Source: Flavipsychrobacter sp.
GTDB lineage: Bacteria > Bacteroidota > Bacteroidia > Chitinophagales > Chitinophagaceae
NCBI GenBank assembly: GCA_016786665.1
Contig: JAEUVZ010000018.1
Span: forward strand, 1-64,000
Reading direction: 5' to 3'
Length of the DNA stretch: 64,000 nt
Shown: in pieces, positions 2,027 to 9,709 of the stretch
Layout: each line of letters opens with the position of its first letter
How positions within the stretch are numbered: the stretch's first letter is position 1
Position numbers and translations under genes: made by a program
The notes under the pieces: generated by a model
The model's input: only the letters and a program-made list of their open reading frames with translations
Told to the model about the DNA's origin: nothing
Databases searched by the model: none

Positions 2027-2728
2027 CTAATTCTTCTTTTTCTTCTTCTTAGATTTCTTACTGAGGAGATAAGTGTAAGACACATCTATTGCCGCAACGT
2101 TCTGCGGGCGCTTCCGGTTGAAGCCGTCGTTGATAAAAAATTCCAGTGATATGTCGTGCCGCTTTTTGTAGAGATACTGAACTCCTGCGCCGTAGCGCAC
2201 ACGGAAGGGGGATAGTCCGCCATCCTCCAGTTCGCTGAAGTGATCAGCATAGGTATATACATCGCACTTCTTATTGTATGCATACTTAACCATCAGCCGG
2301 TTGCGGAGTACACGCTCAGCGGGGTATGCTTCCAGGTATTCCGCATCAAAGTAATCCTGGTCTTGCTGGTAACGCAGCCGGTAACTGATGTCAAATTTAT
2401 CTATCCCATACTTTACTCGTGTAAACACAAAGTAGCGGTGATAGTCTTGCTGGTAGGAGGTGTTGTAACGGTATTCGGCACCAGCCTCCCATCCCCTGGC
2501 AATTTTGTAACTGGCCCTCAACGAAAACATACTGCGCAGAAACTCAGTACCTCCCTGGTGGGTAGTCAGCCGGTAGCGGCCGGTCAGTTCCAGCTTTTTT
2601 ACCGGTTCATAACTTACCCCGGCATTCAGCCGCAGGCGGGTATCGGCAATCGTTTGCGCGCCTGGAACTGCGGGAACTCCCACCAGCAACAACGATGTAA
2701 CTAATATGTAATTGCAGAGCTCACGCAT
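2027..2728 (-). CDS. DUF2490 outer-membrane beta-barrel protein
   Basis: This 233-residue protein has a signal peptide (residues 1-24, ending PGAQ) followed by alternating amphipathic strands rich in Tyr and Arg (GRYRL, EYRYN, SYRLRYQQD). This is typical of DUF2490, a family predicted to form an outer-membrane beta-barrel of unknown function. It is the last gene of the CotH operon, and its start overlaps the stop of the DUF4956 gene by one base (TAATG). An oddity is the C-terminus: after the presumed last strand (VSYTYLL) it carries a lysine-rich tail, SKKSKKKKKKN, instead of ending on the aromatic residue usual for BAM substrates. The family call is fairly sure; the function is not known. 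Confidence 0.8.
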   Translation of the reverse strand: MRELCNYILVTSLLLVGVPAVPGAQTIADTRLRLNAGVSYEPVKKLELTGRYRLTTHQGGTEFLRSMFSLRASYKIARGWEAGAEYRYNTSYQQDYHRYFVFTRVKYGIDKFDISYRLRYQQDQDYFDAEYLEAYPAERVLRNRLMVKYAYNKKCDVYTYADHFSELEDGGLSPFRVRYGAGVQYLYKKRHDISLEFFINDGFNRKRPQNVAAIDVSYTYLLSKKSKKKKKKN

Positions 2729-3384
2729 TAATCATCATCTATTACGCCAGCCATTTTGGTTTCATTCTCTTTAGAGTAGTAATAGCAATGTATTACCGCT
2801 ACATCCTTCAAAAAGTCGATGCGGATAATATCTACGCGGTGTACAGGCAGGCCGGTTCGCTTGTTGATGTCTTCCAGCATATCGCTGCGTTTGTCGGGGT
2901 GTATCAGGTCTATACGTTCGTACACCATCTCCTTTACGTTCTCGTGAGTGAGGTTGATAAACCTATCGAGAATAATGGTAAGGACAAGAATGAACAGGTT
3001 GCAGCAAATGAGGATAACGAAATTATCGTCTACCGTAGCCAGCGCATTAATAATACCTATCGATACACACACAAAGAAATACCCCATCTCTTTCACGGGC
3101 ACTACCACGGTGCGGTATCGCATAATAGAGAATATCGCAAAGAGCCCGAACGCAAAACCAATCTTAATCTTGGTAGCGCTGAGCAGGAAACAGATAAGGA
3201 AGTTGAGACAGTTGAACAGGAAGAAGGTAAATAAAAAGTCTTTGTTCTTGTGGCGGGGATAGTAGATGACCCGTACCAGCATGAATACCGCCAGGATATT
3301 AATCCCAAAGCGTACCAATAGTTCCATTACACTAAATCCCAGGTCTTTACCCTCCAGCAAGCCTTCCGTTAAAACTTGTTCCAT
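2728..3384 (-). CDS. DUF4956 integral membrane protein
   Basis: This 218-residue protein matches DUF4956. About four hydrophobic segments occupy residues 20-135, including a conserved-looking FAIFSIMRYRT stretch, and a soluble cytoplasmic C-terminal domain follows (residues 140-218, ending GVIDDD). DUF4956 proteins are commonly encoded beside VTC-domain proteins, and here the first 38 nt overlap the 3' end of the VTC gene, which suggests translational coupling. A shorter start at Met20 (MELLVRF) would remove the overlap and is possible. Its likely role is as the inner-membrane partner of the VTC protein, by association only. Confidence 0.85.
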   Translation of the reverse strand: MEQVLTEGLLEGKDLGFSVMELLVRFGINILAVFMLVRVIYYPRHKNKDFLFTFFLFNCLNFLICFLLSATKIKIGFAFGLFAIFSIMRYRTVVVPVKEMGYFFVCVSIGIINALATVDDNFVILICCNLFILVLTIILDRFINLTHENVKEMVYERIDLIHPDKRSDMLEDINKRTGLPVHRVDIIRIDFLKDVAVIHCYYYSKENETKMAGVIDDD

Positions 3385-4150
3385 ACAGATTTTGAATTTT
3401 GTTGATTTTGCTTAAGATCATCTTGAAGGCGTTGTGCTTTACGTCCTTCTTTATCAGGGTGATGCCGAGGATATATTTACTAATGCTCCCGGGGGGGATG
3501 CGCTGTGCTTTAAGTTCTTTAATAATGGCGCTGTGCAGGTTGGTCTTGTCCTGCTTCACTTCTATAATCACTACCTTATCAACGGCGACAGAATCCCCGT
3601 TGTAACCAAACTGCAGGGAAAGATCTATGGTGAACCGCTCTGTAAGCGCTTTGCTGACAAACGTTATCCGGTTGAACGAATTGAGGAGGCTAAGGTTTAG
3701 CTGCTCCACGCTGTGCTTGGCATACTTTTCTTTCACTACCGCATACTCCGGCTCTGTAAGCTCCTGCAGCAGGTTGTCTACGCGCTTCCGGTATTTGTCG
3801 GTTCGGTAGCCTTTGTACTTTTTCTTTATCTCAAAAAAAGAAAGGTTATTGTCCAGGTATTGACGGCAACGCACCTTTACGCGGTTGTTCAGGCCATTGT
3901 GGTGGTCTTTGTAAAACTGGTGCCCGGGCGTATCAAAATAAATAGTATTGTACGAAAATAACCGCGTGCCATTAATATCCAGTACCCGGTACTCACCCAG
4001 TATGTTGCGCATTATCTCCGGCAGGCGGCTGATGTGCATTACATACTTACGGTCTATCCGGTTCAGGAGCTTTACGCTGTCCATTTCCTCCAGGCTGATG
4101 GTTTCGGCCTGTTGCAACACCCCCTGTACTTCCCGCAGGTATTCTGTCAT
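3347..4150 (-). CDS. VTC domain protein, polyphosphate polymerase-like
   Basis: This 267-residue soluble protein has the VTC fold, the triphosphate-tunnel catalytic domain of eukaryotic vacuolar polyphosphate polymerase. Basic and acidic tunnel residues appear in the expected order: RKYV (Lys35), RVKVRCR (Arg90, Arg94, Arg96), FFEIKKKY (Glu107, Lys109), FNRITF (Arg161), ERFTID (Arg172) and IIEVKQDK (Glu197, Lys199). There is no signal peptide or membrane segment, so it should be cytoplasmic, perhaps docked to the DUF4956 protein. Its start overlaps the upstream stop by one base. In yeast the domain makes polyphosphate from ATP; for bacterial homologues the substrate is not established. The tunnel looks intact. 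Confidence 0.88.
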   Translation of the reverse strand: MTEYLREVQGVLQQAETISLEEMDSVKLLNRIDRKYVMHISRLPEIMRNILGEYRVLDINGTRLFSYNTIYFDTPGHQFYKDHHNGLNNRVKVRCRQYLDNNLSFFEIKKKYKGYRTDKYRKRVDNLLQELTEPEYAVVKEKYAKHSVEQLNLSLLNSFNRITFVSKALTERFTIDLSLQFGYNGDSVAVDKVVIIEVKQDKTNLHSAIIKELKAQRIPPGSISKYILGITLIKKDVKHNAFKMILSKINKIQNLYGTSFNGRLAGG

Positions 4151-4554
4151 TAAATATTTACTTTAAAATCAGGAACTTCCACTTCACCCTTTTTATCGGT
4201 CACTTCTACCTCCTGTATAAAGTGCTGCTGGCCCTCCGGCGAAGTCAGCACCGCGGTATCGCTCTTGGCAAACACCCATACCTTGTATTTGCCTTTGCGC
4301 AAAAAGTTGAACTGGTAAGAGCCATCGTACGAGGTGCGTATATCATCAAAATGCTCGCTACCATCCGCGGCCCCTATGTACACTCTTATTTCTCCCAGGT
4401 AGCCTTCTGATATAAGGGTTTTACCCGAAGTAAAATCGTAGGCATACACCTTTCCCTTTACAGAAGCCAGGCCCCCAGGGCCCGGCTCCTTTTTGCAAGA
4501 TATAATTAGTAAGCTAACAAGAAAGGGTAATGCAATCTTAATTCTATTCCTCAT
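4150..4554 (-). CDS. Small lipoprotein with carboxypeptidase-regulatory-like fold
   Basis: This 134-residue protein has a lipoprotein signal with the lipobox LIISC (Cys about residue 20). The mature part is a single beta-sandwich resembling the carboxypeptidase regulatory or CNA-B-like domain: VKGKVYAYD, then TSYDGSYQFNFLRKGKYKVWV. Such domains often act as binding or structural modules on the periplasmic or surface face of Bacteroidota envelopes. It lies 8 nt downstream of the CotH gene and overlaps the VTC gene by one base, so it belongs to this operon. The fold assignment is from sequence pattern only. Confidence 0.75.
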   Translation of the reverse strand: MRNRIKIALPFLVSLLIISCKKEPGPGGLASVKGKVYAYDFTSGKTLISEGYLGEIRVYIGAADGSEHFDDIRTSYDGSYQFNFLRKGKYKVWVFAKSDTAVLTSPEGQQHFIQEVEVTDKKGEVEVPDFKVNI

Positions 4555-4562
4555 AATACGCT

Positions 4563-7500
4563 CTACCGGACGAGTGTCAGGTCTCCTTTAAACATTTTGT
4601 CTTTTCTGGTTCCCTGCGGGTTCTCAAAATTCACTTTTATCTGGTAGAAGTAAGTACCTATATCTACCGGCGCACCACGCCAGGTACCATCCCATCCCTC
4701 TCTCGGGTCAGTGGTCTGGAATACTACTTCGCCAAAGCGGTTGAAGATGCGGAAGTCTACGCTGCGTACATCAACACCCGGCATAATTTTGAACAGGTCG
4801 TTCACGCCATCTTTATTAGGAGAGAACGCCGTAGGTATCGTAATGGTCTCGTCTACCGGTGGTGGTATCTCGGTAAAGTTAGCCACTATGCTGTCCTGGT
4901 CTACGTAGCGGAACGATACGTCAGCCTCTTTATCCGACATCACAAAAGTGGTAGTGGAGAGGTTGCGCGTCCAGTCAGTAAACCTCCAGTTGAATATTGG
5001 CTTCGCCATCAGGCTGTAGGAATATTTTCTATCCAGCTTCATTTTGTGCGGATAACCTGAAATCAATTCTCCATTGAAGTGGATGGTTCCTTTACCCCGT
5101 GGATATACATCGAATACCACATACACAGAATCCGGATCAGGGAAAGGCACAAAGTGAGCGATAACAGTATCCTCGTTCTGGTAAGTGTAGGTAACCACTT
5201 CATCAGAGTCTACCGGCGCAAAGACGCTCATCGCATCCCACTTGGTCCAGTTCACGAAACGGTGGAGCGGCACGATAGGCTGTGCCAGCAGCGAGTAAGC
5301 CTGGGACCGGTCTAACTTCAGCGTCTGCGGATAAGCCGGTATCGTGGTACCATTCAGCGTAATGCTTCCGGTTCCCGGAGGGTCAACGATGAAGGTTACA
5401 TTGATGGAATCTGGATCAGGAACAAATACAAAGTGCGCTATCACGGTATCTTTCTCGCTGAAGTTGTAGGTGATGCTCACGGTAGTATCATCCGGTGAGA
5501 ACACACTGGTCGTGCGTTTCTTTTCCCAGTTCACCAGTCCCCAGCTGAAGATAGGTTCCGCTTCCAGGGTGTAGGTGATGTTCTTATTAAGGGTGAGCGT
5601 AGTGGGGTAGGTGGCTATCTGTGTACCATTCAGCCTTATGTAGCCGCTGGTAGCCGGGTCTACGTCAAAAGTCACTTCAATGGAATCAGGATTATAATAA
5701 ACGAATACGGCCGTTATAGAGTCGTCGTCGTTAAAGTCGTACGTTACCGGGTTTGCGAGGTTGTTCACCGTAAAGGTATTGCCGTTGGCCGTTTTCTCCC
5801 AGTGGTCGAAAATCCAGTTGGCTGTAGTGGAAATCGCCTGCAGGGTATGCACCGTATCCGACATCACGAGCTTGCTTCCCGGATATGGATTGAGTGTACT
5901 GGCGTCCAACTCAATTTTACCTATGTTAGCCGGGAACACATTCCATTTCAGGTTGCGCATCTGCAGGTCCAGGCAAGTATCAATCTTACCCGTGATCACT
6001 GCACAGCGGCCAACAATCTGATTGCGGGCATACTGCACGTTGTTCTGCCACTGGGCAAAATTGGCACCCCAGCGGGTACACTGCCGCTGCATTTCCGGCG
6101 TAATGATAGCGTGGATGGAGTCGAAGTGGTACAATATATTTTCACACTTGAACGGGCCGTTCAGCATGTCTATCCACGTCTGCTTGTACAGCATTGTGAA
6201 GTCAGGATTCTGAAGCAGCCGGGCCAGCATGTCGGTGTGTTTAATATTCGAGTTGTTCTGGAACATGCTGATGGGGTCGCAGGGGTCGTTCTGATACGTG
6301 GTATTACCTACCCCGGTATAGTTTTGCCCCAGGTCCAGGATGTTATCTTCATCCCACAGAATGTACCGCCATTTTTCGCCTTGCCCGCCCCGGCCTCTCC
6401 ACCACATGGTGTTCCAGTTCAGCCAGTCGGTATTTACCAGGTATTGGTTAAAGATGAAGTACTGTATAAAGCTTTCCACGTTCAGGTACTGTGTAACGTG
6501 ATTGTAGTTAGCGGCATTGGCCATGTTATTGGCCATTATAAAGTTGTAAAGATTGTTCCAGCCGGTATCGCTTCCATACTCTACGTTCAGGCCACCCCAG
6601 TAGCGGAGCATATCCACCTTCTTTTCAGACTGGCCATAGTTGTATTCCGTATAGTCGGCATCTACGCGCTCGCGTATTTCGTAAAGCCCCCAGTATTGCC
6701 CGTTGATAAACAAGATAGTTGGTTCGTAACGGCGGAAGTCCATTTCCAGCGCGTAGCGCTCCGCCAGTGTTTGCGCGAAGGCGTCACGCATGTGCGCGGC
6801 GCGGAAAGGCCCACCATCAAAGTTGTCAGAACCTGCAGCCTTTATCAGTATCACGCCAAAAGTATCGCGGGTTGTTCCGCTGAAAAGGGGGTAATCTATA
6901 TCGGCATTAACACCCGACTCGTCCCTTACGTGGAAGCGCATACCCTTTTGCGGAAACATCCATGAGTCATTACCGTGGCGGCGCACCTGCCCTTCTACCT
7001 CAAACTGGAACGTCTTGTTCTTGTCGAAGAACTCCAGGGAAGAATATTGCTGCTGCCCGCTGGCAAATAGCTGGTTGTAGTTACCCGTTACAGAAAGAAC
7101 ATTAACGGTGGTATTTTCATTTATCAGGTACGTATTGGTTTCTACAAAGCTGGGGGCTATCAGCGGGTTGGTGCTGAAGGCACGCGCCTTTATTACCGTA
7201 GTAACCGCTACGTTGATAGGGCCGGTGTAAAGCGTAGAAGCAGTAGTAGGCACGGTACCATTGGTAGTGTAGTAGATAGACACATTGGGGTCGGGGCTGC
7301 TCAGCACAATGTTTTGCGCTACCGTATAGTTGCCCGGGGCCACGCTAAAGGCAGGCTTGGTAGCATAGCCGGTGAGCGCGTTGGCATTGGCTGCATTGGG
7401 TGTAGGCGTGGCGAAAAGCGCCCAGGAAGGAGCACCATCCGTAGTGCGGCCGCGGGAGTGGCCCACATAGGTGCGGTACAGAGATGTAGAATCTAAGATA

Positions 7501-7868
7501 TTTCCCGCAGGGTCGGCAAAAACAAATTTTTCACCGCGTGTCTGCTTCAGCTTAAAGGATGTGTGGATGTTGCCACCCGCTACAATGTTCCTATCGCTGC
7601 AAAAAACCATACGACGGGCACCGGGATTAATGGTTACACCCGCAGGTATCTGGTACTTCTGTACATCGTTAGCGTCATCACTCAGCCAGTAGCCCGTAAG
7701 GTTAACGGTAGTGCCGCCGGCGTTGTAGAGCTCCACCCAATCCTCATACTGGTTGTAATTATCCAGGTACGAATTGAGGTTGGAACACGAATACTCATTT
7801 ATCACCACTTGAGCGCGGCTGAACGTACTTGCAGCTAGTATGACTAATAGCGTAAAAAGTCTCTTCAT
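4563..7868 (-). CDS. Secreted CotH kinase-family protein with lamin-tail domain and T9SS type B tail
   Basis: This 1101-residue protein is the first gene of the operon. In order: signal peptide (1-19), lamin-tail domain (about 20-135, INEYSCSN, WVELYNAGG), a chitobiase/hexosaminidase C-terminal-like beta domain (about 170-250, SIYYTTNGTVPT), CotH domain (about 255-640), four divergent InlB-like repeats (about 646-1005, each ending near DSI/DTV-A-F), and a gliding-motility-associated C-terminal (type B T9SS sorting) domain (about 1015-1101, PTAFSPNKDG to GDLTLVR). CotH of Bacillus phosphorylates spore-coat proteins; the metal-binding W-D-x-D motif is intact here (Trp505-Asp506-Glu507-Asp508), as is an N-lobe basic motif (QKGMRF). 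It is expected outside the cell or on the outer-membrane surface. Its substrate is unknown. Confidence 0.9.
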   Translation of the reverse strand: MKRLFTLLVILAASTFSRAQVVINEYSCSNLNSYLDNYNQYEDWVELYNAGGTTVNLTGYWLSDDANDVQKYQIPAGVTINPGARRMVFCSDRNIVAGGNIHTSFKLKQTRGEKFVFADPAGNILDSTSLYRTYVGHSRGRTTDGAPSWALFATPTPNAANANALTGYATKPAFSVAPGNYTVAQNIVLSSPDPNVSIYYTTNGTVPTTASTLYTGPINVAVTTVIKARAFSTNPLIAPSFVETNTYLINENTTVNVLSVTGNYNQLFASGQQQYSSLEFFDKNKTFQFEVEGQVRRHGNDSWMFPQKGMRFHVRDESGVNADIDYPLFSGTTRDTFGVILIKAAGSDNFDGGPFRAAHMRDAFAQTLAERYALEMDFRRYEPTILFINGQYWGLYEIRERVDADYTEYNYGQSEKKVDMLRYWGGLNVEYGSDTGWNNLYNFIMANNMANAANYNHVTQYLNVESFIQYFIFNQYLVNTDWLNWNTMWWRGRGGQGEKWRYILWDEDNILDLGQNYTGVGNTTYQNDPCDPISMFQNNSNIKHTDMLARLLQNPDFTMLYKQTWIDMLNGPFKCENILYHFDSIHAIITPEMQRQCTRWGANFAQWQNNVQYARNQIVGRCAVITGKIDTCLDLQMRNLKWNVFPANIGKIELDASTLNPYPGSKLVMSDTVHTLQAISTTANWIFDHWEKTANGNTFTVNNLANPVTYDFNDDDSITAVFVYYNPDSIEVTFDVDPATSGYIRLNGTQIATYPTTLTLNKNITYTLEAEPIFSWGLVNWEKKRTTSVFSPDDTTVSITYNFSEKDTVIAHFVFVPDPDSINVTFIVDPPGTGSITLNGTTIPAYPQTLKLDRSQAYSLLAQPIVPLHRFVNWTKWDAMSVFAPVDSDEVVTYTYQNEDTVIAHFVPFPDPDSVYVVFDVYPRGKGTIHFNGELISGYPHKMKLDRKYSYSLMAKPIFNWRFTDWTRNLSTTTFVMSDKEADVSFRYVDQDSIVANFTEIPPPVDETITIPTAFSPNKDGVNDLFKIMPGVDVRSVDFRIFNRFGEVVFQTTDPREGWDGTWRGAPVDIGTYFYQIKVNFENPQGTRKDKMFKGDLTLVR

Positions 7869-8080
7869 AAATTAAGTGTGTATGAACAAATTATGTCTAA
7901 AATATTAAATTAAAGTCAACTAAAAAAAGCTAGTTAACATAAATAAATGTAAAATATTTTCTGGCGGGAAGGGAAGATTACAAATATAGACGTATTTGCC
8001 ATAATAATAGGTTGGAAAACTTCATAAAAATTTAATTTTGAAAAAAGTCCTACTTTTATAAGTCATACAGAATTAACAAC

Positions 8081-9709
8081 ATGCGTAAATTTTACTTTCT
8101 CCTCCTCGCAGGCCTGGCTATGGCAGGCTTTGCGCAGGCTCAGCTCACCGCATCCAATCTTCCTATCGTGCGGATAACGACCAATACGGCGATTGCGGGC
8201 AACCAGATAGATGGCAATATGCATATTATTGATAATTCGTCGGGGGTAAACCAGGTTACAGACCCGCCTACCTTCCAGAGCATAATAGGGGTAAAAGTCC
8301 GGGGTTCGGTATCGGCGGCGAAGAAGTCGTACAATGTAGAAACCTGGGCCAATGTGCTGGGCACATCGCTGAACGTGTCGGTACTGGGCTTTCCCGCCGA
8401 AAACGACTGGGTACTGCTGTCCTCGTACACCGACCGCTCGCTGCTGCGCAACCTGACGGGCATGTACCTGTACAGCCAGATGGGTTACTGGGCCAGCCGC
8501 ATGCGCCTTTGCGAGGTGATCATTAACGAAGGCACGGGCGACCAGTACCAGGGCGTGTACCTGTTTGGCGAGAAAATAAAAAGAGACTCCGCCCGCCTGG
8601 ACCTGGCAACACTGCAACCCGGCGACAATGCCGAACCGGAGATATCGGGCGGCTACATACTGCGCATAGACGACTCTAACGAAGGGTTTTGGGCCAGCCT
8701 GCACCTGCCCCCATACGCCAGCGGCTCACAAAATATCAAGTTCCGCTACGAGGAGCCCGCCGATAACGACATCACCCCCGTGCAAACCGCTTACATAAAG
8801 GGCTGGATGAAAAAATTTGAAGATTCTCTTTCTTCCGGCAACTACCAGGACACCAATATAGGCTGGCGTGCTTATGCAGCCAAAACATGGTTCCGCGATT
8901 ACCTCATCTTCAGCGAGGTAATGAAAAGCAAAGACGCTTACCGCAAGGCCACCTACCTGTACAAAGACAAATCGAAAAAGCTGCGCATCGGCCCGCCATG
9001 GGAGTTGGAGTTATCGCTCTATAATACGGCCGACTGCAACGCATCTTCTACCACGGGCTGGGCATACCAATATGGCCTCACGTGCGACACCAGCACTTAC
9101 CTGCCTCCGTTCTGGTGGGAACGCCTGATGACCGACACCCTGTTTGTATCGGAACTGAAGTGCCGCTACACCTACCTGCGCGAAAACGTACTGGATACCG
9201 CCATGATATTCAGCTACCTGGATGCGATGTCTGACTCCCTGAATGTGATACAGGGTGGTGGCACCGCTCAAGGACGCAACTTCGTGAAATGGCCGATATG
9301 GGGCGTGAACCTGGTGAACGAGCCTATGGGTGGCGCCGCTGACTATGCTACGGAAGTAGCCCGCATTAAAACCTTTCTGCAAGACCGCCTTGCCTGGCTG
9401 GATACCCAATGGTGGGTGCCGGGTTGCGCACTGAGCGTAAACGAACTGCTGGGCGAACAGGAAAACAACTACATAAGCCCGAACCCCGCCAGCGGCAACT
9501 TTAACACACACCTGGTGCTGAACAAGCAAACGAAAGTGAGCGTATCGGTACGCAACCTGCAAGGGGCGGTGCTGTATACCAAAAACTACACGCTTGGCAC
9601 CGGCGAACACAAACTGAACCACGACATCAGCGAGTTCCCCGCTTCTATCTATATAGTGACGATACAGCAGGGCGACTACAGCCGCCACTTCAAACTAGTG
9701 AAGAACTAA
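8081..9709 (+). CDS. Secreted CotH-family protein with altered catalytic motif, T9SS type A tail
   Basis: This 542-residue protein is transcribed divergently from the CotH/VTC operon. It has a signal peptide (1-20, FAQAQ), a CotH domain (about residues 28-430) and a C-terminal type A sorting domain (about 465-542, ISPNPASGNF to HFKLVKN). CotH hallmarks are visible: VRGSVSAAKKSYNVE, then YLYSQMGYWASR, GVYLFGEKIKR and YLYKDKSKKLRIGP. However, the segment that normally reads W-D-x-D is W-E-L-E (Trp307, Glu308, Leu309, Glu310), so both metal-binding Asp are replaced by Glu. It may be a pseudokinase or may use metal differently. A perfect hairpin terminator follows the gene. Confidence 0.85.
   Translation: MRKFYFLLLAGLAMAGFAQAQLTASNLPIVRITTNTAIAGNQIDGNMHIIDNSSGVNQVTDPPTFQSIIGVKVRGSVSAAKKSYNVETWANVLGTSLNVSVLGFPAENDWVLLSSYTDRSLLRNLTGMYLYSQMGYWASRMRLCEVIINEGTGDQYQGVYLFGEKIKRDSARLDLATLQPGDNAEPEISGGYILRIDDSNEGFWASLHLPPYASGSQNIKFRYEEPADNDITPVQTAYIKGWMKKFEDSLSSGNYQDTNIGWRAYAAKTWFRDYLIFSEVMKSKDAYRKATYLYKDKSKKLRIGPPWELELSLYNTADCNASSTTGWAYQYGLTCDTSTYLPPFWWERLMTDTLFVSELKCRYTYLRENVLDTAMIFSYLDAMSDSLNVIQGGGTAQGRNFVKWPIWGVNLVNEPMGGAADYATEVARIKTFLQDRLAWLDTQWWVPGCALSVNELLGEQENNYISPNPASGNFNTHLVLNKQTKVSVSVRNLQGAVLYTKNYTLGTGEHKLNHDISEFPASIYIVTIQQGDYSRHFKLVKN

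Follow-up and report, generated by a model that had tools for sequence, protein, structure and literature searches.

The stretch of Flavipsychrobacter sp. DNA considered here (GenBank assembly GCA_016786665.1, contig JAEUVZ010000018.1, positions 1 to 64,000, hereafter the window, at its full length of 64,000 nucleotides) carries on its minus strand, at 2027-7868, a real operon of five genes, which encode a CotH-domain kinase-like protein, a small lipoprotein, a VTC polyphosphate-polymerase domain protein, a DUF4956 membrane protein and a DUF2490 beta-barrel. An original prediction, made from the sequence alone, had proposed these genes as a candidate envelope-spanning modification system. We find that they belong to a real and widely conserved module, in which the linkage of VTC to DUF4956 is nearly fixed. 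The core trio of CotH, VTC and DUF4956 is already known; the Bacteroidota form, with its additional envelope part, is new. An exporter is the reading which best fits the series of cytoplasm, membrane, envelope and surface, and we propose, at a little short of an even chance, that the operon makes and exports a phosphate polymer and couples this to phosphorylation at the cell surface, with the polymer, the cargo and the phosphoryl donor all presumptive.

Linkage was examined in 77 VTC loci, drawn from a search of the window's own family (97 genomes), a search of the phylum (392 genomes) and the window itself; a fragment of 54 positions (G116:C160) was excluded, and several of the loci are truncated by contig ends. 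VTC was found in 10 of the 97 genomes of the family and in 62 of the 392 Bacteroidota genomes, DUF4956 in 95 and CotH in 144 of the latter. Every one of the 62 VTC genomes also carries DUF4956, and in 72 of the 77 loci the two genes are immediate neighbors with a common orientation; the five exceptions are a contig end (L073), a locus with intervening small open reading frames (L077) and three in which other genes of the cluster lie in between (L109, L113 and L116). The neighborhood survey which the original prediction had put forward as its own check has thus come out in favor of this pair. For CotH the predicted linkage stands in part. At the genome level it is pronounced, with CotH in 60 of the 62 VTC genomes versus 84 of the 330 without VTC (Fisher, 5e-28), and among the VTC-less genomes CotH occurs in 24 of the 33 with DUF4956 and in 60 of the 297 without it. 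At the locus level, CotH falls within ~8 kb of VTC in 31 of 77 cases (30 on the same strand, and one a contig-end fragment), where chance would give ~1.3, or 2.6 with doubled copy numbers (copy numbers were counted up to 5 per genome, and genomes unique to the own-family search were left out), and it is not found beside VTC in the other 46.

The arrangement recurs outside the phylum. In a comparison set gathered near a Planococcus query, comprising the best 80 of 582 loci (mostly Firmicutes, and an uneven sample), VTC was found in 76 and CotH in 70. Gram-positive hits from a plasmid collection, of which five of six were read (H3, from Enterococcus, was left out), have the VTC and DUF4956 genes adjoining or overlapping each other in five of five, with CotH next in three and an envelope part in none. 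In the named control genomes, 14 in number, the same three give matches to both VTC and DUF4956; two of these (Corynebacterium glutamicum and Methanosarcina acetivorans) also contain CotH, as does Bacillus subtilis. It could be supposed that the operon merely gathers unrelated genes into one transcript, and in keeping with this a homologue of the lipoprotein occurs in just 6 of the 77 loci, every one of them a DUF2490 locus, so that the lipoprotein can no longer be counted as a general part of the set. However, the linkage statistics, together with the recurrence in the comparison set, refute chance association for VTC, DUF4956 and CotH and leave it hardly tenable for DUF2490, the lipoprotein being exempt from this refutation; for the operon as a whole we consider chance neighborhood highly improbable.

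Beside VTC and DUF4956, an envelope part is found in 68 of the 77 Bacteroidota loci, namely an HlyD-type adaptor in 45 and a DUF2490 barrel in 23, and never both (hypergeometric, 1.2e-12). This strengthens the envelope-spanning character that was predicted for the set, and it also revises the place of the barrel, which is present in 23 of 77 loci as one of at least two alternatives. The adaptor candidates, of ~355 amino acids (aa), fall into two clusters, one downstream and one upstream. The downstream cluster is recognized by Pfam (HlyD_3, 6.8e-12 in L072), whereas the upstream cluster is barely visible to it (7.3e-4 for L069, no match for L081) and matches the downstream cluster in a profile comparison (99% probability, 4e-18); we take the members of both clusters for HlyD-type adaptors, with less assurance for those upstream. 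For an independent Pfam scan, neighbors of 250-460 aa on the same strand and within three genes were taken, of which 86 of 88 from the Bacteroidota (the partial L069:1-897 and L114:477-1262, with masked letters, being excluded) and 89 of 89 from the other, mostly Firmicutes set were aligned. Of the 86 Bacteroidota proteins, 25 matched HlyD_3 and 18 matched HlyD_D23, while in the set of 89 HlyD ranked by frequency below the top 25 of 121 families, and our own profiles detected an adaptor, TolC or DUF2490 in none of the best 80 of 582 loci. SdiA-regulated/Phytase-like proteins make up 4 of the same 86 Bacteroidota neighbors. A three-member cluster, possibly of this type, stands directly after DUF4956, as at L076 6874-7668 and L093 9938-10711. 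A separate pair of proteins, related to each other, lies near VTC and DUF4956 at L067 10759-12252 and L083 5576-7375. In L048 an alternative barrel was sought and rejected, the two downstream neighbors being a SPOUT methyltransferase and a rhomboid.

An adaptor and TolC occur together in L109, where a single run contains CotH, DUF4956, an HlyD adaptor (4.9e-12), TolC (OEP, 4.3e-17), VTC and an LTD protein, and in which no ABC, RND or MFS pump gene was recognized. As compared to HlyD-TolC tripartite exporters, L109 has DUF4956 in place of the pump, and in our reading it takes the position that an inner-membrane pump would have; the window, which gave no adaptor or TolC match on the same strand within 6 kb, has a barrel in place of the adaptor. 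The genomes with DUF4956 and without VTC were examined at the locus level in 19 of 33 cases (L142, a twentieth region, represents an additional DUF4956 copy of G278). The downstream-type adaptor was found in 10 of these loci, the upstream type in one (L137) and neither in the rest. L137 combines an adaptor, DUF4956 and TolC (OEP, 1.1e-34), L142 combines DUF4956, a Porin_O_P barrel and CotH, and the protein that follows the adaptor in L124 has a weak OEP match (0.0019) and relatives in eight other loci; the corresponding protein in L136 has no Pfam name. A recurrent gene order in L124-L129 and L138-L140 is a gene of ~183-189 aa, DUF4956, an HlyD-like adaptor and a relative of the weakly TolC-like L124 protein. 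The 183-aa gene before DUF4956 was considered as a divergent VTC and rejected, since the copy in L124 is DUF6580. Separately, L132-L135 and L141 contain a short DUF4956 (~186 aa) in a long-branched clade, with no VTC, adaptor or barrel nearby and with a gene of 626-632 aa adjoining on the opposite strand.

A tree of 120 DUF4956 proteins, 26 of them from the comparison set, resolves two subfamilies with support of 100/100, and the envelope parts follow this division: all 23 barrel rows are on one side and all 43 adaptor rows on the other. The 26 mostly Firmicutes rows form one clade on the adaptor side, and the barrel label needs several changes within its own side. The two kinds of adaptor fall in different clades and have a different gene order, which suggests that they were recruited separately, although the deep order is unsure where long branches meet. 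One record titled Caldisericia (L204) groups with Firmicutes in this tree and is possibly a misbinned contig.

With respect to the individual proteins, those of the operon and its surroundings were scanned with Pfam at curated cut-offs, weaker matches being listed at E <= 0.01; the E-values over cut-off are 1.4e-36 for CotH, 6.6e-17 for CHU_C, 1.1e-26 for VTC, 4.4e-48 for DUF4956 and 5e-9 for DUF2490. The VTC protein (3347-4150, 267 aa) scores 94.3 bits versus a cut-off of 23 (PF09359), and its profile ranks the catalytic Vtc4 (3g3q, 2.5e-21) ahead of Vtc2 and Vtc3 in the PDB. Single-sequence searches of the PDB with VTC and CotH were uninformative, whereas the profile searches succeeded. Among 38 sequences 18 VTC columns are invariant, and 14 of these have the identical residue in Vtc4 (K35, Y71, D73, R94, R96, Y98, E107, K109, K119, R161, D176, E197, K199 and K225), in agreement with the earlier claim that the tunnel residues are intact. 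The protein thus shares with the eukaryotic VTC complex (Vtc4; PDB 3g3q, 7ytj, 8i6v) the catalytic tunnel domain and most of the invariant residues. Unlike that complex, which has SPX/DUF202 and is directed to the vacuole, it has no SPX or DUF202 domain by Pfam (E <= 0.01; VTC alone was found), DUF4956 would fill the membrane role, and the direction would be outward to the surface. By a crude hydropathy test, an export-type N-terminus is seen in 3 of 77 Bacteroidota and 6 of 76 other VTC proteins, as compared to 36 of 37 CotH proteins from the Bacteroidota and 71 of 73 from elsewhere; VTC looks cytoplasmic and CotH exported.

It is unlikely that VTC is the housekeeping polyphosphate synthase, because 58 of the 62 VTC genomes also have PPK1 (counted by eye; PPK2 was not searched). 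PPK1 is present in 353 of the 392 Bacteroidota genomes, that of the window included, and by the same count in 33 of the 33 genomes with DUF4956 and without VTC. VTC is an extra enzyme in most of the genomes that carry it, and since all of these 33 have PPK1, polyphosphate could remain the cargo where VTC is missing. The VTC genomes without a PPK1 match are, by eye, G225, G466, G171 and G461, in which VTC may be the only polyphosphate synthase, with PPK2 outside the search.

The DUF4956 protein (2728-3384, 218 aa) was modeled by AlphaFold2 at a mean pLDDT (predicted local distance difference test score) of 85.8, as five main helices followed by a beta-alpha-beta-beta C-terminal domain. R89 and R91, near the end of a predicted helix at 75-92, are invariant in 62 sequences. 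Its profile found nothing convincing in the PDB (best E, 0.83), with no match to any Vtc chain. The tunnel fold of VTC proteins also occurs in hydrolases, and one may consider a quite different role for the pair, in which DUF4956 is an MgtC-like regulator or ion transporter, VTC is a triphosphate-tunnel sensor or hydrolase, and the state of phosphate or divalent ions is coupled to surface proteins. The C-terminal domain of the model would suit this, as would the description of the Streptococcus intermedius DUF4956-like protein as MgtC plus ACT by the authors who studied it (PMC12345266). The match of VTC to Vtc4, with the 14 common columns, argues against it, and the HlyD and TolC neighbors better suit an exporter; we regard the regulatory role as distinctly unlikely.

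The DUF2490 protein (2027-2728, 233 aa) was modeled at a pLDDT of 88.4 as a barrel with 11 strands by DSSP. VIA-align places it closest to KdgM (Z 16.6; root mean square deviation 2.4 over 157 residues, 12% identity), the NalP translocator (16.1) and NanC (15.9), while in Foldseek yeast TOM chains rank first by E-value, with a low TM-score, and KdgM ranks seventh. KdgM-family porins have 12 strands, and the KdgM and NanC pores are lined with basic residues for acidic sugars, a point on which the titles of their structure entries give partial support. The window barrel has no match to the KdgM sequence family (Pfam, E <= 0.01), its Pfam family being DUF2490; the likeness is that of a small barrel fold, together with the conserved arginines of DUF2490, where among 22 sequences R142 is invariant and R87, R117 and R178 are almost so, and which would face the lumen. 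The porins import acidic sugars, whereas DUF2490 would export a polymer. The lysine-rich C-terminal tail was set aside as a polyphosphate-binding feature, as at least three Lys/Arg in the last 12 residues are present in 12 of the 22 sequences and not in 10. The lipoprotein (4150-4554, 134 aa), recognized by a lipobox-like IISC judged by eye, gives a single Pfam signal, to SdrD_B, which is weak (2.2e-4) and falls short of the cut-off.

The CotH protein of the operon (4563-7868, 1101 aa) comprises an export-type N-terminus, an LTD, a chitobiase-C-like domain and a type IX secretion system (T9SS) type B sorting domain at its end. Its score for PF08757 is 127.1 bits versus a cut-off of 23.8, and the CotH profile matches Bacillus cereus CotH (5jd9) in the PDB at 7.4e-42. 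B. subtilis CotH is inactivated by a change of D228 or D251 (PMC7821199), and counterparts of both, paired through the 5jd9 alignment and a spacing of 23, are present here in N-T-D and WDED; the W-D-x-D motif is intact, as had been claimed. The kinase domain and both catalytic aspartates are common to this protein and the Bacillus spore-coat kinase, from which it differs in its T9SS export tail. Some Bacteroidota CotH proteins resemble, by eye, lipoproteins and not T9SS cargo. The original prediction did not list a second CotH-domain gene, divergently placed at 8081-9709 on the plus strand (118 bits), the product of which ends in a T9SS type A tail and has WELE in place of WDxD, so that the second catalytic aspartate is missing; it is possibly a pseudokinase or a partner. 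A divergent CotH pair is also found in L046 and L052.

Taken in order, the proposed steps would be as follows. In the cytoplasm, VTC would polymerize phosphate, most likely as polyphosphate from ATP, and on homology and residues we think polymer synthesis by this protein probable. DUF4956 would take the chain at the inner membrane, perhaps via its invariant Arg-x-Arg, and would pass the chain through or hold a channel; this role is suggested by the near-fixed linkage to VTC and by its place beside HlyD and TolC parts in relatives, and we judge translocation an even proposition. The DUF2490 barrel, associated with the pair in this branch, may let the anionic polymer across the outer membrane; in most other Bacteroidota loci the HlyD-type adaptor fills its place, joined by TolC in at least one of them; that barrel or adaptor is the conduit has slightly the better of the argument. 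The CotH protein, with its export signal and catalytic residues, may then phosphorylate surface proteins or glycans, and a role as a surface kinase is reasonably likely. It is possible that the exported polymer is the phosphoryl donor for CotH, although we find this doubtful. We think similarly little of the most far-reaching version, a dedicated polyphosphate secretion machine that would lead from a VTC synthase through a DUF4956 translocon to a KdgM-like porin or HlyD/TolC conduit, with CotH using the polymer as donor and monoderms retaining the core without the conduit, and we regard it as quite unlikely.

A number of observations weigh against the coupling of polymer export to surface phosphorylation. 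Activity of this VTC or its relatives was not shown in the sources consulted, and at four of those 18 positions Vtc4 carries another residue, with Ala for both R90 and K92, Ser for T174 and Phe for Y226. Foldseek gave no match for the DUF4956 model at E <= 0.001, and the best VIA Z, 6.9, is to RND-type membrane bundles; the KdgM and NanC scores of the DUF2490 model lie within ~1 Z of autotransporter barrels such as NalP. No recognized envelope part accompanies VTC in 9 of the 77 Bacteroidota loci, nor in two presumably diderm members of the comparison set, from Spirochaetales (L191) and Elusimicrobiaceae (L208). DUF4956 occurs without VTC in 33 of 95 genomes, and the VTC-less loci with an adaptor make it clear that it may carry a different cargo. 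In S. intermedius, deletion of the VTC-like SIR_1593 is reported, with no effect described (PMC12345266). Last, CotH is absent within ~8 kb from the 46 loci counted above, some of them truncated by contig ends; it does not need VTC, since 84 of 330 VTC-less genomes carry it; and for B. subtilis CotH, ATP serves as donor in vitro (PMC7821199). These last points also favor a looser arrangement, in which the exported chain, be it polyphosphate or a different polymer of phosphate, serves at the surface to bind cations while CotH acts independently, with another donor and exported proteins as its substrate. The co-occurrence of CotH and VTC at the genome level, as described earlier, argues for a functional tie between them, and we consider an independent CotH somewhat unlikely.

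The closest published counterpart is the accessory gene trio of CotH, a polyphosphate-polymerase domain and DUF4956 in Gram-positive Pel clusters (PLoS Pathog 2020, PMC7112168; mBio 2025, PMC12345266), in which CotH is described as secreted and the DUF4956-like protein as transmembrane. The core trio was thus already in print, and can be read as well in the C. perfringens locus NELoc-2, where VTC genes, neighbors annotated as tubulin/FtsZ, CotH, HEAT and a glycosyltransferase follow in order (PMC2879425) and where, from their size and place, the tubulin/FtsZ-annotated genes would be DUF4956. NELoc-2 is Gram-positive and contains the glycosyltransferase, and its accessible description names no barrel or adaptor. 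DUF4956 is also mentioned in PMC6848847. The authors of the mBio paper report that away from the Pel locus they met with no such set of three genes (PMC12345266); the window is a case of the trio outside it. As in the Pel module, CotH, the VTC-type domain and DUF4956 are in one cluster here; the window adds the lipoprotein gene between CotH and VTC, the outer-membrane barrel and the T9SS tail on CotH, and its genome gave no PelG match. In the open-licence literature we found no paper proposing polyphosphate export by these genes or tying them to HlyD, TolC or DUF2490 (those three names were not used as search terms).

This literature lends itself to another explanation, that the operon is an accessory module for a surface glycan, in which CotH phosphorylates a glycan or matrix protein, VTC and DUF4956 handle phosphate or ions, and polyphosphate export is beside the point. 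The Gram-positive trio is found in Pel clusters (PMC7112168, PMC12345266), or beside glycosyltransferase and HEAT or MBOAT/AlgX-type genes, and loss of either the DUF4956-like or the CotH gene by deletion in S. intermedius alters the level of Pel and aggregation (PMC12345266). Planococcus and Pseudobutyrivibrio records have the trio near glycosyltransferases and without a gene annotated as pel within ~7 kb, in annotation that is incomplete, and the protein two genes from VTC in L083, one of the related pair noted above, is a Cthe_2159 carbohydrate-binding protein. On the other hand, Pel itself was rejected for the window's own genome, in which no PelG match was obtained (PelG being the sole pel family searched, and the contig starting 2 kb downstream of the operon), and there is no glycan synthase among the eight window proteins scanned between 3 and 12245, a region with one further, unscanned open reading frame and bounded by the contig start at base 1. 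Furthermore, the HlyD, TolC or porin partners suggest that in the Bacteroidota the cargo is carried across the envelope. We consider the glycan module unlikely, and continue to favor the exporter.

The coordinates and joints of the five open reading frames agree with those originally predicted. The CotH and lipoprotein genes are separated by 8 nucleotides (nt), one-base TAATG overlaps occur at 4150 and 2728, and the VTC and DUF4956 genes overlap by 38 nt provided that DUF4956 starts at its first ATG. An alternative start at Met20 would leave a gap instead of this overlap; the longer form is likely, because the residues before Met20 resemble those of L048, in which that position is a serine. 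Between the two divergent cotH genes, the intergenic region at 7869-8080 contains candidate boxes at 8033 (plus) and 7988 (minus) that fit the Bacteroidota -7 consensus, TAnnTTTG. Downstream of DUF2490 by 278 bp, on the same strand, a large secreted-type protein truncated by the contig start (3-1748, minus) has a Reelin_subrepeat-B match (7.1e-8).

The eukaryotic VTC complex serves for the synthesis of polyphosphate as well as for its passage across a membrane, and a review of polyphosphate evolution ascribes bacterial synthesis to PPK1/PPK2 and maps VTC across eukaryotes (PMC10657179). The presence of VTC in 62 of 392 Bacteroidota genomes, 58 of which by eye also carry PPK1, contrasts with that map, and the CotH-VTC-DUF4956 trio is here seen apart from the Pel polysaccharide. 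The analysis assigns a testable role to DUF4956 and DUF2490, two domains of unknown function. If the operon does export polyphosphate, it would offer a genetic handle on how bacteria place the polymer outside the cell, and, if the coupling to CotH were true, a candidate answer to how exported kinases are supplied with a phosphoryl donor, for surface phosphorylation where ATP is absent.

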